Part shown: positions 46,968-52,547 of the stretch, one piece after another
How positions within the stretch are numbered: the stretch's first letter is position 1
Layout: every line of letters begins with the position of its first letter
The notes under the pieces: generated by a model
The model's input: only the letters and a program-made list of their open reading frames with translations
Told to the model about the DNA's origin: nothing
Databases searched by the model: none
Origin: Halobacillus kuroshimensis DSM 18393
GTDB taxonomy: Bacteria; Bacillota; Bacilli; Bacillales; Halobacillaceae
Assembly: GCF_000425705.1 (NCBI RefSeq)
Contig: NZ_AUDY01000008.1
Location: forward strand, 744,001 to 808,000
Reading direction: 5' to 3'
Length of the DNA: 64,000 bases
Program-made: the position numbers and the translations under genes

Positions 46968-48068
46968 ATGGCAAGATTAATCAATCCACCAGGAAAATGG
47001 AATGGACGTACAGTAGCTTTGGATGATGGACATGGAATGGAAACTCCGGGAAAAAGAACGCCATACATTCAGGAAATAGGCAGACAAATTAAGGAGAACG
47101 AATTCAATCGTAAAGTTGTGCAGTATTTATCGAACATTCTTCTGGATCATGGATTCCGCGTGCTTCTCGTAGCACCTACAGATGAAGACACACCATTATC
47201 CTACAGGACGAGAGCTGCCAATCAGAACAATGCGGATATTTATGTATCCGTCCACTACAATGCTTTTGATGGGTCCTTTGGAGGGGCAGATCCAAATGGA
47301 ATCGAACTTTACGTCTACCCCGGATATTTGAACCGGCCCGCCGGACGACTTGCCTCATCACTTGCGAAATACTTACGCCAGGGCACCGATCAAAACTTCA
47401 GAGGGATTAAAGAAGCAAACTTCCACGTTTTACGTGAAACGGATATGCCGGCGGTATTAACAGAGAATGGCTATATGGATAACAAGCGGGAAGCTTTATT
47501 GATGATTGACGAACGCTTTCAAAAAGAAGTCGCAGAGGAGCACGCCCGGGGCATCTTAGAATACTTTGGAGTTCCGTTTAAGGGCGGAATCGATTATCTT
47601 TCTCTTGGAGATACCGGCGCAGAAGTGAAGGAGATGCAGGAGAACTTATTGAAGCTTGGTTATACGATGAATGGTTACGGAGCCGACGGCAGTTTCGGAC
47701 CTGCCACAGAAGCTGCTGTTAAAGCCTTTCAAAAAGATAATAATTTGGAAGTGGACGGTTTTTATGGGCCGAAAACGAAAGCGGCAGTGCAGATAGCTTT
47801 AGATAACCTGAACAAAGGAGAAGAGGAAATGGAGAAATTGGCAGTTGTTATAAACTCTTTTGCAGACTTCCCGGCCGTTGAGGCACTGGTCATCCGGAAA
47901 AATGCTTTAATCGCGCTCAGAGCTGTGGCGGAAAAACGTCAGGTAGCAGAACAGATCATTGTAGCTGGCGGTGGCACAGACGGGCTCAAAGGGAGTAACT
48001 TTATTGATTTGACAGGAAAAACACGTTATGAGACTTCCCAAAACATTAAAAATTATTTAGCTAAGTAA
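46968..48068 (+). CDS. N-acetylmuramoyl-L-alanine amidase, CwlC-like
   Basis: 366 residues, no signal peptide. Amidase_3 zinc domain (~12-200): zinc ligands in DDGHG, ENEFN and VSVHYNA, catalytic glutamate in TENGYMDN. Then a PG_binding_1 repeat (~215-280; LSLGDTGAEVKEMQENLLKLGY) and a C-terminal segment resembling part of a cell-wall-binding repeat 2 (DLTGKTRYETS). ATG 46968 has GAGAGAGG 7 bases upstream. B. subtilis cwlC, a leaderless mother-cell-lysis amidase, lies beside spoVK in the same neighbourhood, so this is probably its functional counterpart; a prophage-type lysin is the alternative, but no phage genes are nearby. Confidence 0.85.
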   Translation: MARLINPPGKWNGRTVALDDGHGMETPGKRTPYIQEIGRQIKENEFNRKVVQYLSNILLDHGFRVLLVAPTDEDTPLSYRTRAANQNNADIYVSVHYNAFDGSFGGADPNGIELYVYPGYLNRPAGRLASSLAKYLRQGTDQNFRGIKEANFHVLRETDMPAVLTENGYMDNKREALLMIDERFQKEVAEEHARGILEYFGVPFKGGIDYLSLGDTGAEVKEMQENLLKLGYTMNGYGADGSFGPATEAAVKAFQKDNNLEVDGFYGPKTKAAVQIALDNLNKGEEEMEKLAVVINSFADFPAVEALVIRKNALIALRAVAEKRQVAEQIIVAGGGTDGLKGSNFIDLTGKTRYETSQNIKNYLAK

Positions 48069-48157
48069 AGCGACTGTAAAACATTCCAGTGTACTTTCCA
48101 TCCATTCCTGCTTATAATAAAGGAAATAGAACAAATGTTCGCAGGAGGGATTACCCA

Positions 48158-48388
48158 TTGGAAACGGTTTTTAAGCAGTCCGTTAAAAACAAGCAGGTCA
48201 TTGATATCATCTATTTGTCCGAAGGCAGGCATTGGTCGCAGCGTTCTGTTAGAGTGATTCAAAATCAACCTGATGCCATCCTTGCGTACTGCCTGCAAAA
48301 GAGGGATGTCCGCACGTTTTTGAAGAAAAATATTTATTCAGCTGATTTTCAACGGCGGGGTAATGGAGAACGTGCGGGAGCTTCATAA
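48158..48388 (+). CDS. Mini WYL-domain-like protein
   Basis: 76 residues from TTG 48158, which follows AGGAGGG by 8 bases. The sequence IDIIYLSEGRHWSQRSVRV...AYCLQKRDVRTFLKKNI resembles the core of WYL ligand-sensing domains, but there is no HTH or other domain. Single gene between the amidase and convergent lexA. Function unknown; the WYL resemblance is by eye. Confidence 0.7.
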   Translation: METVFKQSVKNKQVIDIIYLSEGRHWSQRSVRVIQNQPDAILAYCLQKRDVRTFLKKNIYSADFQRRGNGERAGAS

Positions 48389-48410
48389 TTATAAGATAAT
48401 TATTTTCAAC

Positions 48411-48458
48411 ACACGTAAAAACCGGCGGGGACCCTCCCGCCGGTTTTTACGTGTGTTT
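48411..48458. terminator. Bidirectional terminator between the WYL gene and lexA
   Basis: CACACGTAAAAACCGGCGGG pairs with CTCCCGCCGGTTTTTACG and following TGTG; serves the two convergent genes. Confidence 0.9.
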
Positions 48459-49081
48459 TAATGAACGGTCCGATATAAGCCGACAACCCGGCCGAGAATG
48501 GATACGTCATTTAAAATGATCGGTTCCATTGTGGCATTTTCAGGCTGGAGTCGGATATGATTTTTCTCCTTGAAGAATCGTTTGACAGTAGCCTCTTCCT
48601 CTTCGGTCATAGCTACAACTATATCTCCGTTCTGGGCGGTCTGCTGCTGTCTGACAATGACCATGTCCCCGTCAAGAATGCCGGCCTCAATCATACTTTC
48701 CCCCTGAACGATAAGGACGAACGTATTATCTTCCGATCCTGCAAGCGTATCCGGGAGGGGAACATATTCTTCAATGTTCTCTACTGCCGTAATCGGTGAA
48801 CCGGCCGTAACTTTACCGATGACAGGGGCATATGTGGCTTCCCCGCGAGGGATACTGTGGTCTTCTTCCAGCTCAATCACTTCAATAGCCCTTGGTTTCG
48901 TCGGATCCCTGCGGATATATCCCTTTTTCTCAAGACGGGATAAATGACCGTGGACGGTGGAACTGGAGGCCAGCCCCACAGACTGACCGATCTCCCTTAC
49001 AGATGGGGGATACCCTTTTAGTAGAACCTGTTCTTTTATGAAATCTAGTATTTCCTGCTGCCGCTTTGAAAGTTTGCTCAT
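48458..49081 (-). CDS. lexA: SOS repressor LexA
   Basis: 207-residue repressor. N-terminal winged HTH ([22 protein letters not shown]), Ala-Gly cleavage site region (GKVTAGSPI; the scissile bond here lies in TAGS), catalytic serine in [11 protein letters not shown] and lysine in ATVKRFF. Divergent from the microprotein-yneB operon across a region with four LexA boxes. Confidence 0.98.
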
Positions 49082-49143
49082 AGATTAGCACCTCGTACAT
49101 AGGATTATAGTAACCACATTGTACCATGCCATCCTCAAAAATA

Positions 49144-49157
49144 CAAACAAGCGTTCG
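49144..49157 (+). promoter_or_regulatory. LexA box 1
   Basis: CAAACAAGCGTTCG; 12 of 14 against GRAACRYNYGTTCG. Nearest to lexA. Confidence 0.6.
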
Positions 49158-49167
49158 AAAAAAGTCG

Positions 49168-49195
49168 TTGACAAGAACATACATTCGTCTATAAT
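49168..49195 (+). promoter_or_regulatory. Strong promoter of the SOS microprotein-yneB operon
   Basis: TTGACA (49168-49173), 16 bases, TATAAT (49190-49195); the spacer is filled by LexA box 2. Confidence 0.8.
49174..49187 (+). promoter_or_regulatory. LexA box 2
   Basis: AGAACATACATTCG, 12 of 14 against GRAACRYNYGTTCG, lying between the -35 and -10 boxes. Confidence 0.7.
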
Positions 49196-49210
49196 GAGAA
49201 TTAGAAAACG

Positions 49211-49224
49211 CGAACAGAGGTTCT
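49211..49224 (+). promoter_or_regulatory. LexA box 3 (weaker)
   Basis: CGAACAGAGGTTCT, 12 of 14 against CGAACRNRYGTTYC, just after the transcription start. Confidence 0.5.
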
Positions 49225-49226
49225 TA

Positions 49227-49240
49227 GGAACGTTCGTTCT
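49227..49240 (+). promoter_or_regulatory. LexA box 4
   Basis: GGAACGTTCGTTCT, 13 of 14 against GRAACRYNYGTTCG, 18 bases before the microprotein start. Confidence 0.7.
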
Positions 49241-49257
49241 TAAATGGAGGGTTAATT

Positions 49258-49353
49258 ATGTTTAATAAACTATCAAAACTGGACTACACTTATATCGTTT
49301 TGTTTATTGTTAGTTTTGCTATTCTCTATTATTCTATGGTTACAAGCGGATAA
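49258..49353 (+). CDS. SOS-controlled 31-residue membrane microprotein in yneA position
   Basis: ATG 49258 is preceded by TGGAGGG (8 bases). The 31 codons give a short N-terminal stretch with two lysines (MFNKLSKLDY) and one hydrophobic helix (TYIVLFIVSFAILYYSMV) ending TSG. It is the first gene of the lexA-divergent operon, under a consensus promoter covered by LexA boxes, with yneB starting 34 bases later. In B. subtilis this position holds YneA, an SOS division inhibitor with one transmembrane segment plus a LysM domain; no LysM sequence exists here in any frame. Alternatives are a minimal YneA-like inhibitor or a TisB-like SOS peptide. No B. subtilis homologue recognised by sequence. Confidence 0.65.
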   Translation: MFNKLSKLDYTYIVLFIVSFAILYYSMVTSG

Positions 49354-49360
49354 ACCTTGA

Positions 49361-50038
<678 letters not shown>

Positions 50039-50063
50039 GCAGGTTACTATAGGAACATAAGGG

Positions 50064-50095
50064 AGACAAGAGTCTTAGGGCTGCTTGTCTTTTTC
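50064..50095 (+). terminator. Terminator after yneB
   Basis: AGACAAG pairs with CTTGTCT around a 13-base loop, followed by TTTT. Confidence 0.65.
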
Positions 50096-50139
50096 ATGTT
50101 CTAAAGCTGATCCAGACTATAAAAAAAGGAGAAGGATCT

Positions 50140-50373
50140 ATGTTATCTCAAGAAAAATTGGACCGTATAAACGAATTAGCCAATAAATCCAAGCAGCAGG
50201 AATTAACGAAAGAAGAGAAAAGCGAACAGAAGAACCTGCGTCAGGAATATTTGCAGAGTGCCCGTAAATCATTTAAAAACCAGTTGAAAGGTGTTACGGT
50301 CATCGATCCTGCCGGGAATGATGTGACTCCTGCGAAACTGCGTCAAATGCAGGAGAACGAAAAGAAAAACTAA
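50140..50373 (+). CDS. ynzC: DUF896 protein YnzC
   Basis: 77-residue helical-hairpin protein (EKLDRINELANKSKQQELTKEEKSEQ), SOS-operon member in B. subtilis with unknown role. AAGGAGAAGG precedes ATG 50140. A hairpin upstream may reduce readthrough from yneB. Confidence 0.93.
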   Translation: MLSQEKLDRINELANKSKQQELTKEEKSEQKNLRQEYLQSARKSFKNQLKGVTVIDPAGNDVTPAKLRQMQENEKKN

Positions 50374-50387
50374 ATGACTGAACAGAT

Positions 50388-50418
50388 CCGCATCTTCTTT
50401 AAAAGGTGCGGTTTTTTT
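50388..50418 (+). terminator. Terminator of ynzC
   Basis: CCGCATCTT-CTTTA-AAAGGTGCGG, then seven T. Confidence 0.85.
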
Positions 50419-50543
50419 CGTTTAATTCAGCGGAATCACGGGGAAATTAAGGAAGGGCGGAGGACAAAAGTTTGCACAACGCCTTGTTTCATTATAGGAT
50501 AATACATGGTACATATACCTGTACAGAAAGGGGATTATTGGAA

Positions 50544-52547
50544 ATGGTAAAAAGTCTTGAACAAACTTCAATTGATACAATTCGAACACTAACGATCGAC
50601 GCAGTAGAAAAAGCAAGTTCCGGTCACCCGGGTATGCCTATGGGGGCTGCTCCAATGGCTTATAAACTCTGGACGGAATTTATGGATCATAATCCTAAAA
50701 ATTCAAACTGGTTCGACCGCGACCGTTTCGTCCTCTCCGCAGGACACGGATCTATGCTTCTATACAGCCTTCTGCACCTTTCCGGCTATAACGTGACAAT
50801 GGGTGATCTAAAATCATTCCGCCAGTGGGATTCTAAAACTCCCGGACACCCGGAATATGGACATACAGACGGTGTCGAAGCAACAACCGGTCCTCTGGGA
50901 CAGGGACTTGCTATGGCAACCGGAATGGCGATGGCGGAAGCCCACCTTGCCGGAAAATACAACCGCGAAGGCTACAACGTCGTGGACCACTATACATTCT
51001 CCATCTGCGGTGACGGTGATTTGATGGAAGGGGTTTCCCAGGAATCTGCTTCGCTTGCCGGCCACCTTGGTCTTGGAAAGCTGGTTGTCCTTTATGACTC
51101 CAACGATATTTCTCTTGATGGAGATCTTGACCGTTCCTTCAGTGAAAGTGTTGAAAAACGCTATGAAGCGTATGGATGGGAAGTTATCCGTGTTGAGGAT
51201 GGTACCGACGTGGAAACGATCGGACAAGCGATCCAGCAGGCAAAAGCCAACACATCCCAGCCGACTATGATTGAAGTGAAGACCGTGATCGGCTATGGTT
51301 CTCCTAACAAATCCGGTAAATCTGATTCACACGGTGCTCCACTGGGTGAAGAAGAAGGAACAGCTGCCAAACAGTTTTACGGATGGGAACACGAACCATT
51401 CCATGTACCTGATGAAGTATACCAGGACTTCCAGGATAAAGTTCAGAAAAATGGTGAAGACAAAGAGCAGTCCTGGAACGAGTTGATGGCATCCTATAAA
51501 GAAGCTTATCCAGAGCTTGCTGAAGAACTGGAAGCCGCTATCCGTGGAGAGCTGCCTGAAGGATGGGATAAGGAACTTCCATCTTACAAAGTCGGCGAAG
51601 ACAGCCCTGCTACCCGCGCAGCATCCGGTGACGCCATCAATGCATTGTCCAAAGCCGTTCCATATTTCTTTGGTGGAAGTGCGGACCTTGCAGGATCCAA
51701 CAAAACGGCTGTAAAAGGCGAAGAAGATTTCTCCCGTGAGAATTACGCCGGCCGGAACATCTGGTTTGGTGTACGTGAATTCGCCATGGCTGCAGCGTTG
51801 AATGGTATGGGTCTTCACGGCGGATTGAAGGTTTACGCTGGTACATTCTTCGTATTCAGTGATTATCTTCGTCCAGCAGTTCGACTTTCTGCTCTAATGA
51901 ATCTTCCGGTCAATTACGTGTTCACTCACGATTCTGTTGCTGTTGGTGAAGACGGCCCGACACACGAACCTGTGGAACAGCTCGCTTCTCTAAGAGCTAT
52001 GCCGAACCTTTCCGTGCTTCGTCCGGCGGATGGGAACGAAACCAACGCAGCTTGGAGACTGGCTCTTGAGTCCGAAGATAAGCCGTCAGCCCTTGTGTTG
52101 ACTCGTCAGGGACTTCCTACACTGGAAGGAACAGAAGAGCATGCATACGAAGGTATGAAGCGTGGTGCTTACATTCTGAGTGATTCAGATAAAGATGAGC
52201 CGGATGCCATTCTTCTTGCTTCTGGTTCAGAGGTTCAGTTGATCGTTAAAGCACAGGAAGAACTTAAGACAAAAGGCTATGATGTCCGCGTCGTGAGTGT
52301 ACCTTCCTTCGACCGCTTTAATGAGCAGTCCGCTGACTATAAAGAAAAGGTCCTTCCAAACAGCGTGCGCAAGCGCCTGGCTGTTGAAATGGGAGCATCC
52401 TTCGGCTGGGAGCGCTATGTAGGCCTTGACGGATCTGTCATCGGTATCGATACATTTGGTGCCTCAGCTCCAGGTAATACAGTCATTGAAAACTACGGCT
52501 TTACGGTTGAAAATGTTGTCAAACATGCTGAAAACCTTATGAAGTAA
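50544..52547 (+). CDS. tkt: Transketolase
   Basis: 667-residue thiamine-diphosphate enzyme of the pentose phosphate pathway. [11 protein letters not shown], the ThDP motif GDGDLMEG...SNDISLDG and [15 protein letters not shown] are intact. ATG 50544 (AAAGGGGA 9 bases upstream) gives the usual length; the frame is open 72 bases further 5' but without support. Confidence 0.97.

Follow-up and report, generated by a model that had tools for sequence, protein, structure and literature searches.

YneA of Bacillus (model NF010723) is encoded in the slot between lexA and yneB, behind LexA boxes, and has a single N-terminal helix and an extracellular LysM domain. A 2026 study (PMC13396833) reported that the helix of B. 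subtilis YneA touches FtsW at TM7 and in this way reaches midcell, that the division block requires LysM to bind peptidoglycan, and that YneA without LysM localizes faintly and does not block division; the same study calls the mode of FtsW inhibition by YneA an unresolved question. SosA of Staphylococcus aureus (77 aa) is also a lexA neighbour that is SOS-induced and has one helix and no LysM, and it is reported to require its extracellular C-terminal part (PMC6851548). SidA of Caulobacter crescentus, a single-helix peptide of 29 aa, is described in PMC4211646 as SOS-induced and FtsW-interacting, lacking a wall-binding domain, and able to stop division.

Here we describe a 31-aa single-helix peptide encoded in the yneA slot of Halobacillus and its relatives. 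It shares with Bacillus YneA the position between lexA and yneB, the LexA boxes, the single N-terminal helix and a weak N-terminal similarity but, unlike YneA, has no LysM domain. SidA is nearest to it in size and plan, a SOS peptide of about 29 aa with one helix set beside 31 aa preceded by conserved LexA-box-like sites. The two differ in phylum and in locus, and the contact with FtsW is for the present peptide a prediction. SosA resembles it in the features listed above, SOS induction being for the present peptide likewise a prediction, except that essentially nothing of the peptide corresponds to the extracellular part that SosA is described as requiring (PMC6851548).

The 31-codon gene and its promoter region

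The window, that is, the whole stretch of DNA analysed, comprises 64,000 nucleotides of the Halobacillus kuroshimensis DSM 18393 genome. The peptide (MFNKLSKLDYTYIVLFIVSFAILYYSMVTSG, 31 aa) is encoded on the plus strand at 49258-49353, with ATG as the start and TAA as the stop codon. Its divergent neighbour, a 207-aa frame at 48458-49081 on the minus strand, we take to be lexA by what is known of LexA and by gene order, and we used it as the query for locating the flanks in relatives. Downstream on the plus strand are a resolvase-like gene at 49388-50038, presumably yneB by its position and family, a gene at 50140-50373 that we assume from the gene order to be ynzC, and a terminator-like hairpin at 50388-50411. 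A promoter with 12 of 12 matches to consensus (TTGACA-16-TATAAT, 49168-49195, plus strand) and a ribosome-binding site, GGAGGG (49246-49251, plus strand), six bases before the ATG and similar in most relatives, precede the frame. The original prediction, made from this stretch, had pointed to a consensus promoter overlapped by LexA boxes, a good ribosome site, a 31-codon frame with one hydrophobic helix and a yneA-yneB-ynzC layout with neither a LysM domain nor room for one; all of these held on inspection, one box lying within the promoter spacer and yneB beginning 34 nt after the peptide stop.

Two ways in which a longer product could have been overlooked were considered and rejected. No ATG, GTG or TTG lies in frame 5' of the ATG in the 31-aa frame, which rules out a longer start, and the 34-nt gap is too small for a LysM domain hidden by a frameshift. 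The peptide of the window had no match in NCBIfam, Pfam or PHROG (limit for PHROG, 0.01), and the YneA model NF010723 does not detect it.

The LexA box of B. subtilis has the consensus CGAAC-N4-GTTYG. Scored against this consensus, four LexA-box-like sites lie between lexA and the peptide: at 49144-49157 (no mismatches), at 49174-49187 inside the promoter spacer (two mismatches), at 49211-49224 just 3' of the promoter (one mismatch) and at 49227-49240 (two mismatches), all four being recorded without strand. Over the whole window such sites occur at chance level (97 matches against 97.09 expected) and a single one therefore carries little weight; the weight of the four comes from their position and conservation. 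Among 133 loci with lexA and yneB, 114 matched the pattern used to find the peptide, and removal of identical regions and of one false pattern match (L045) left 70 distinct lexA-peptide intergenic regions; three loci whose 34-35-aa peptides carry a short insert (L090, L091 and L098) were missed by the pattern and are outside this count. All 70 regions contain 3-7 LexA-box-like sites, all 70 contain a site without mismatches, and all 70 have at least one site within 75 nt of the peptide start; in mononucleotide shuffles the number of sites is 0.10 per region. The clustering of LexA-box-like sites before the peptide is thus beyond chance. In the H. kuroshimensis genome only three sites without mismatches were found, one of them at the peptide locus, against 13 for the backward control pattern. 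Since the region is shared with the divergent lexA, some of the sites may serve lexA. From these boxes we infer that the peptide is under SOS control by LexA.

Another LexA-box-like site with one mismatch (AGAACAAATGTTCG, 48128-48141) is located just 5' of a frame at 48158-48388, which has a weak, below-cut-off match to a WYL domain (PF13280, E 0.018). This frame is possibly another SOS gene; its association with the box may also be due to chance.

As a check on the frame, it had been proposed to look for it in the same slot of related bacteria. In the family to which the window belongs, 36 of 37 genomes contain yneB, and all 36 have the peptide before it. A profile built from close relatives found 28 named loci, all in Halobacillus or Thalassobacillus and 27 of them between lexA and yneB; being derived from close relatives, this list covers less than the full range. 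The closest locus, L115 in Halobacillus litoralis 22508_20_Filter, encodes an identical peptide next to a yneB with 96% identity. The 57 distinct peptides collected include 41 of 31 aa and 14 of 30 aa, which were aligned (55 sequences), and one each of 27 and 35 aa, which were excluded. Variability at codon positions 1, 2 and 3 was 0.22, 0.12 and 0.42, respectively, and the median dN/dS was 0.14 in the frame, against 0.73 and 1.89 when the two alternative frames were read (41 distinct sequences; medians from 190 unsaturated pairs). The frame is therefore kept in Halobacillus, in Thalassobacillus and further afield, as a conserved coding gene whose amino-acid sequence is under purifying selection.

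Distribution and probable kinship with YneA

Across the order, the peptide profile matched 59 of 397 genomes, in 50 of which the match lies at the lexA-yneB position. The 50 carriers belong to five families (17 in f1, 8 in f2, 15 in f13, 9 in f36 and 1 in f32). The other nine genomes (G078, G079, G170, G208, G236, G268, G289, G329 and G404) gave weak matches and were set aside, as was a second weak match in G029 (L113): eight of the nine have full-length YneA, and in the ninth, G236, the match is inside a 144-aa frame. The stretch from G079 (L114), the only one of the nine that was fetched, has neither lexA nor yneB.

Full-length YneA (NF010723 over cut-off, E up to 1e-12) was found in 246 of the 397 genomes, and in none of those belonging to f1, f2, f13, f32 and f36. 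One f2 genome, G037, which is not among the 246, exceeds the YneA cut-off at a looser limit, but only through the summing of LysM repeats within a single 308-aa frame away from lexA. In the H. kuroshimensis genome all matches to NF010723 are below cut-off and in larger frames, and YneA and LysM searches gave no candidate for a second yneA. The 17 LysM matches in this genome are in frames of 198-444 aa, and no LexA-box-like site with at most one mismatch was found in about 3.1 kb around each of them. A full-length yneA elsewhere in the genome with a LexA box of its own, the finding that had been named as contrary to the original prediction, was thus absent from these searches; the other contrary finding that sequence can address, a frame without conservation, did not occur either.

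In a tree of lexA and yneB with 68 rows, including L054, the 51 carriers form one clade (SH-aLRT 99). A tree of 57 rows, from which L054 was omitted, likewise places the 35 carriers in one clade (bootstrap/SH-aLRT 100/100), which includes G230. This genome (f13, L170) has kept lexA and yneB and has no peptide, and its nested position corresponds to one loss. Absence of the peptide within its families was followed in nine genomes, G230 and eight of f2 (G120, G149, G200, G293, G313, G333, G352 and G390); in the latter eight, neither the peptide nor yneB was found at the limit applied in the search. The module can therefore be lost.

The sister group of the carriers in the 57-row tree (8 rows, support 99/92) consists of seven proteins that combine a helix with a brief tail other than LysM (about 61-82 aa in f35, about 91-94 aa in f3 and 60 aa in f6) and one LysM form (f25). 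As branches inside this group are weak, both stepwise loss, of LysM and then of the tail, and parallel loss are possible. Looking at the slot itself in other families, we noted a helix with a short tail and no LysM, about 59-94 aa in all, in L171-L175 (f35), L053 (f3), L055 (f6) and L043 (f21); YneA-like proteins of this kind, lacking LysM, are more common than the clade of 31-mers. In L040 (f10) the gap between lexA and yneB is just 136 nt, with no frame of at least 20 codons, and so there is no yneA counterpart there. Loss of a DdcP-type protease gave no signal as a correlate, as NF041438 was over cut-off in 59 of 61 relatives, H. kuroshimensis included.

Comparison of the peptide and YneA profiles with hhalign gave an E of 2.3e-4 over 21 columns, at a probability of 44%. 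When the N-termini of LysM-type YneA were scored against the peptide profile, 4 of 12 (L039, L044, L047 and L049) exceeded 295 or more of about 300 shuffles, and the remaining eight, together with the LysM-less L043, were within the range of the shuffles. All six of the LysM-less forms L053, L055 and L171-L174 scored above at least 295 of about 300 split-shuffled controls. The motif common to the peptide and the YneA forms, roughly S-K-x-D-x-(S/T)-(Y/F), precedes the helix. By sequence the peptide is probably homologous to YneA, and its position and boxes argue that it is.

Relatives in prophage-like regions and viral contigs

Away from lexA and yneB, relatives of the peptide occur in seven prophage-like regions and two IMG/VR viral contigs. 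Four are in L107 (at 5852, minus strand) and L108 (5559, minus), both from G015, in L109 from G007 (5709, minus) and in L110 from G336 (3225, plus); those of L111 from G181 (5917, minus) and L112 from G176 (5202, plus) are shorter and weakly related. The seventh region, L142 of Thalassobacillus cyri (1498, plus), is a 3-kb stretch judged by gene order. On the viral contigs L143 and L144 (both 5998, plus) the genes are arranged similarly and include RecT. For six of the seven regions the PHROGs annotation gives phage-type proteins, among them anti-repressor, RecT-like, SbcC-like, DnaB-like and Sak4-like proteins and an integrase. The phage relatives are 26-31 aa long, and each of the nine has a start codon that overlaps the 3' end of the preceding frame, itself at least 90 codons long.

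The L107 peptide matches phrog_12200, a PHROG without an assigned function (E 1e-4). A search for phrog_12200 in 150 relatives gave no match, and was uninformative as the controls were likewise unmatched. Neither the L107 peptide nor its upstream neighbour had a match in the phage collection searched with tblastn, for which a 31-aa helix is a poor query. Transfer may have taken place from host to phage or from phage to host. The presence of relatives in phage early operons fits a target in host growth or division. An analogue, likened by description and not by kinship, is Gp11 of phage PhiNM1, which PMC11237401 describes as a 53-aa membrane microprotein from an early gene, able to block division of the host; it differs in having two helices and in targeting MurG and DivIC.

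A bare helix as a candidate division inhibitor

Three residues, D9, F16 and Y24, are invariant in the 55 aligned peptides, and none of the 55 has D, E, K or R after position 9. Conservation leans mildly to one face of the helix (130-226 of 5000 permutations were equally strong). The peptide stops at the helix end or no more than a few residues from it, with 55 of the 57 distinct peptides being 30-31 aa long. FtsW-family genes were located in the H. kuroshimensis genome.

We consider it rather probable that the peptide is an ortholog of YneA stripped down to a short N-terminus and the membrane helix, and that it serves as an SOS division inhibitor acting in the membrane, probably on FtsW. DNA damage would lift LexA off the promoter, as the conserved boxes suggest, and the peptide would be produced. 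From the charge pattern, it would insert with its N-terminus inside and next to nothing outside. There it would bind, inside the bilayer, a membrane protein of the divisome, by analogy with YneA and SidA most likely FtsW, and so block septal wall synthesis; unlike in B. subtilis YneA, the block would be achieved without a wall-binding domain. One helix may thus suffice to arrest division when DNA has been damaged.

This reading draws on the slot, the boxes, purifying selection, the single clade, the lack of overlap with full-length YneA, the weak sequence link to YneA, and the precedents of the YneA contact with FtsW TM7 and of SidA. Against it stand the inactivity of LysM-less YneA in B. subtilis as reported (PMC13396833), a homology to YneA that is not firm, the weak face-like conservation, and G230, which lives without the peptide. 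Because YneA without LysM is inactive in B. subtilis, a helix-only ortholog either inhibits differently or acts elsewhere. We favour different inhibition since the yneA slot and the boxes have been kept, D9, F16 and Y24 are invariant, and SidA provides a precedent.

Of the two mechanisms originally put forward, then, the division inhibitor is the one we retain, while the other, a depolarizing peptide like TisB of Escherichia coli, appears quite unlikely. Such a peptide, controlled by LexA, would assemble in the membrane and collapse the proton motive force, leading to dormancy. The peptide is in the size class of TisB, which is reported to be 29 aa and SOS-induced (PMC8145889 and PMC11449926), and its predicted control is of the same LexA type. 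TisB, however, bears charged residues along an amphipathic helix with a polar face, and requires K12, Q19 and the C-terminal lysine, as reported in PMC11449926; the uniform lack of D, E, K and R after position 9 in our alignment disfavours such a function. The best segment also has a lower hydrophobic moment, 0.18 compared with 0.39 for TisB. No Rfam family was found at 48000-50800, in a search that a novel antitoxin RNA could escape.

Numerous microproteins of comparable size in bacteria act by modulating partners in the membrane, and the helix might bind some other membrane protein, such as a protease, a transporter or a wall enzyme, and aid recovery from damage without stopping division. 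This is unlikely, though it would accommodate the inactivity of helix-only YneA in B. subtilis (PMC13396833), given that the peptide occupies the yneA slot and that full-length YneA was found in none of the searched genomes of its families. It is very unlikely, in our estimate, that the peptide works as YneA does, as a recruiting helix, with a separate LysM or other wall-binding protein acting in trans: the YneA helix suffices for recruitment to midcell and the block itself depends on LysM (PMC13396833), and the genome offers 17 LysM matches in larger frames, but none of these has a LexA-box-like site with at most one mismatch in the roughly 3.1 kb around it, and the peptide has almost no outside segment through which to contact a partner. 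Its location 34 nt 5' of yneB could suggest a leader peptide solely setting yneB translation. That reading we reject as hardly credible in view of the selection on the amino-acid sequence, the invariant helix residues, a distance to yneB that ranges from 1 to 58 nt, and the relatives in phages without yneB.

Judged by titles and abstract openings, with subscription papers outside the scope, no published description of the 31-aa peptide was found. Returning to the division-inhibitor reading, we hypothesize from the sequence comparisons that an ordinary place and regulation are here combined with an unusual product, a SOS membrane division inhibitor cut to a bare helix. Since the YneA helix binds but does not inhibit, and LysM is essential, as reported (PMC13396833), a large clade in which only the helix is present amounts to a natural experiment on how YneA inhibits FtsW. 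Should the bare helix prove inhibitory, about 30 residues would be sufficient to arrest an essential wall synthase, with a bearing on the understanding and drugging of FtsW, and the phage relatives would represent viral use of a host checkpoint.
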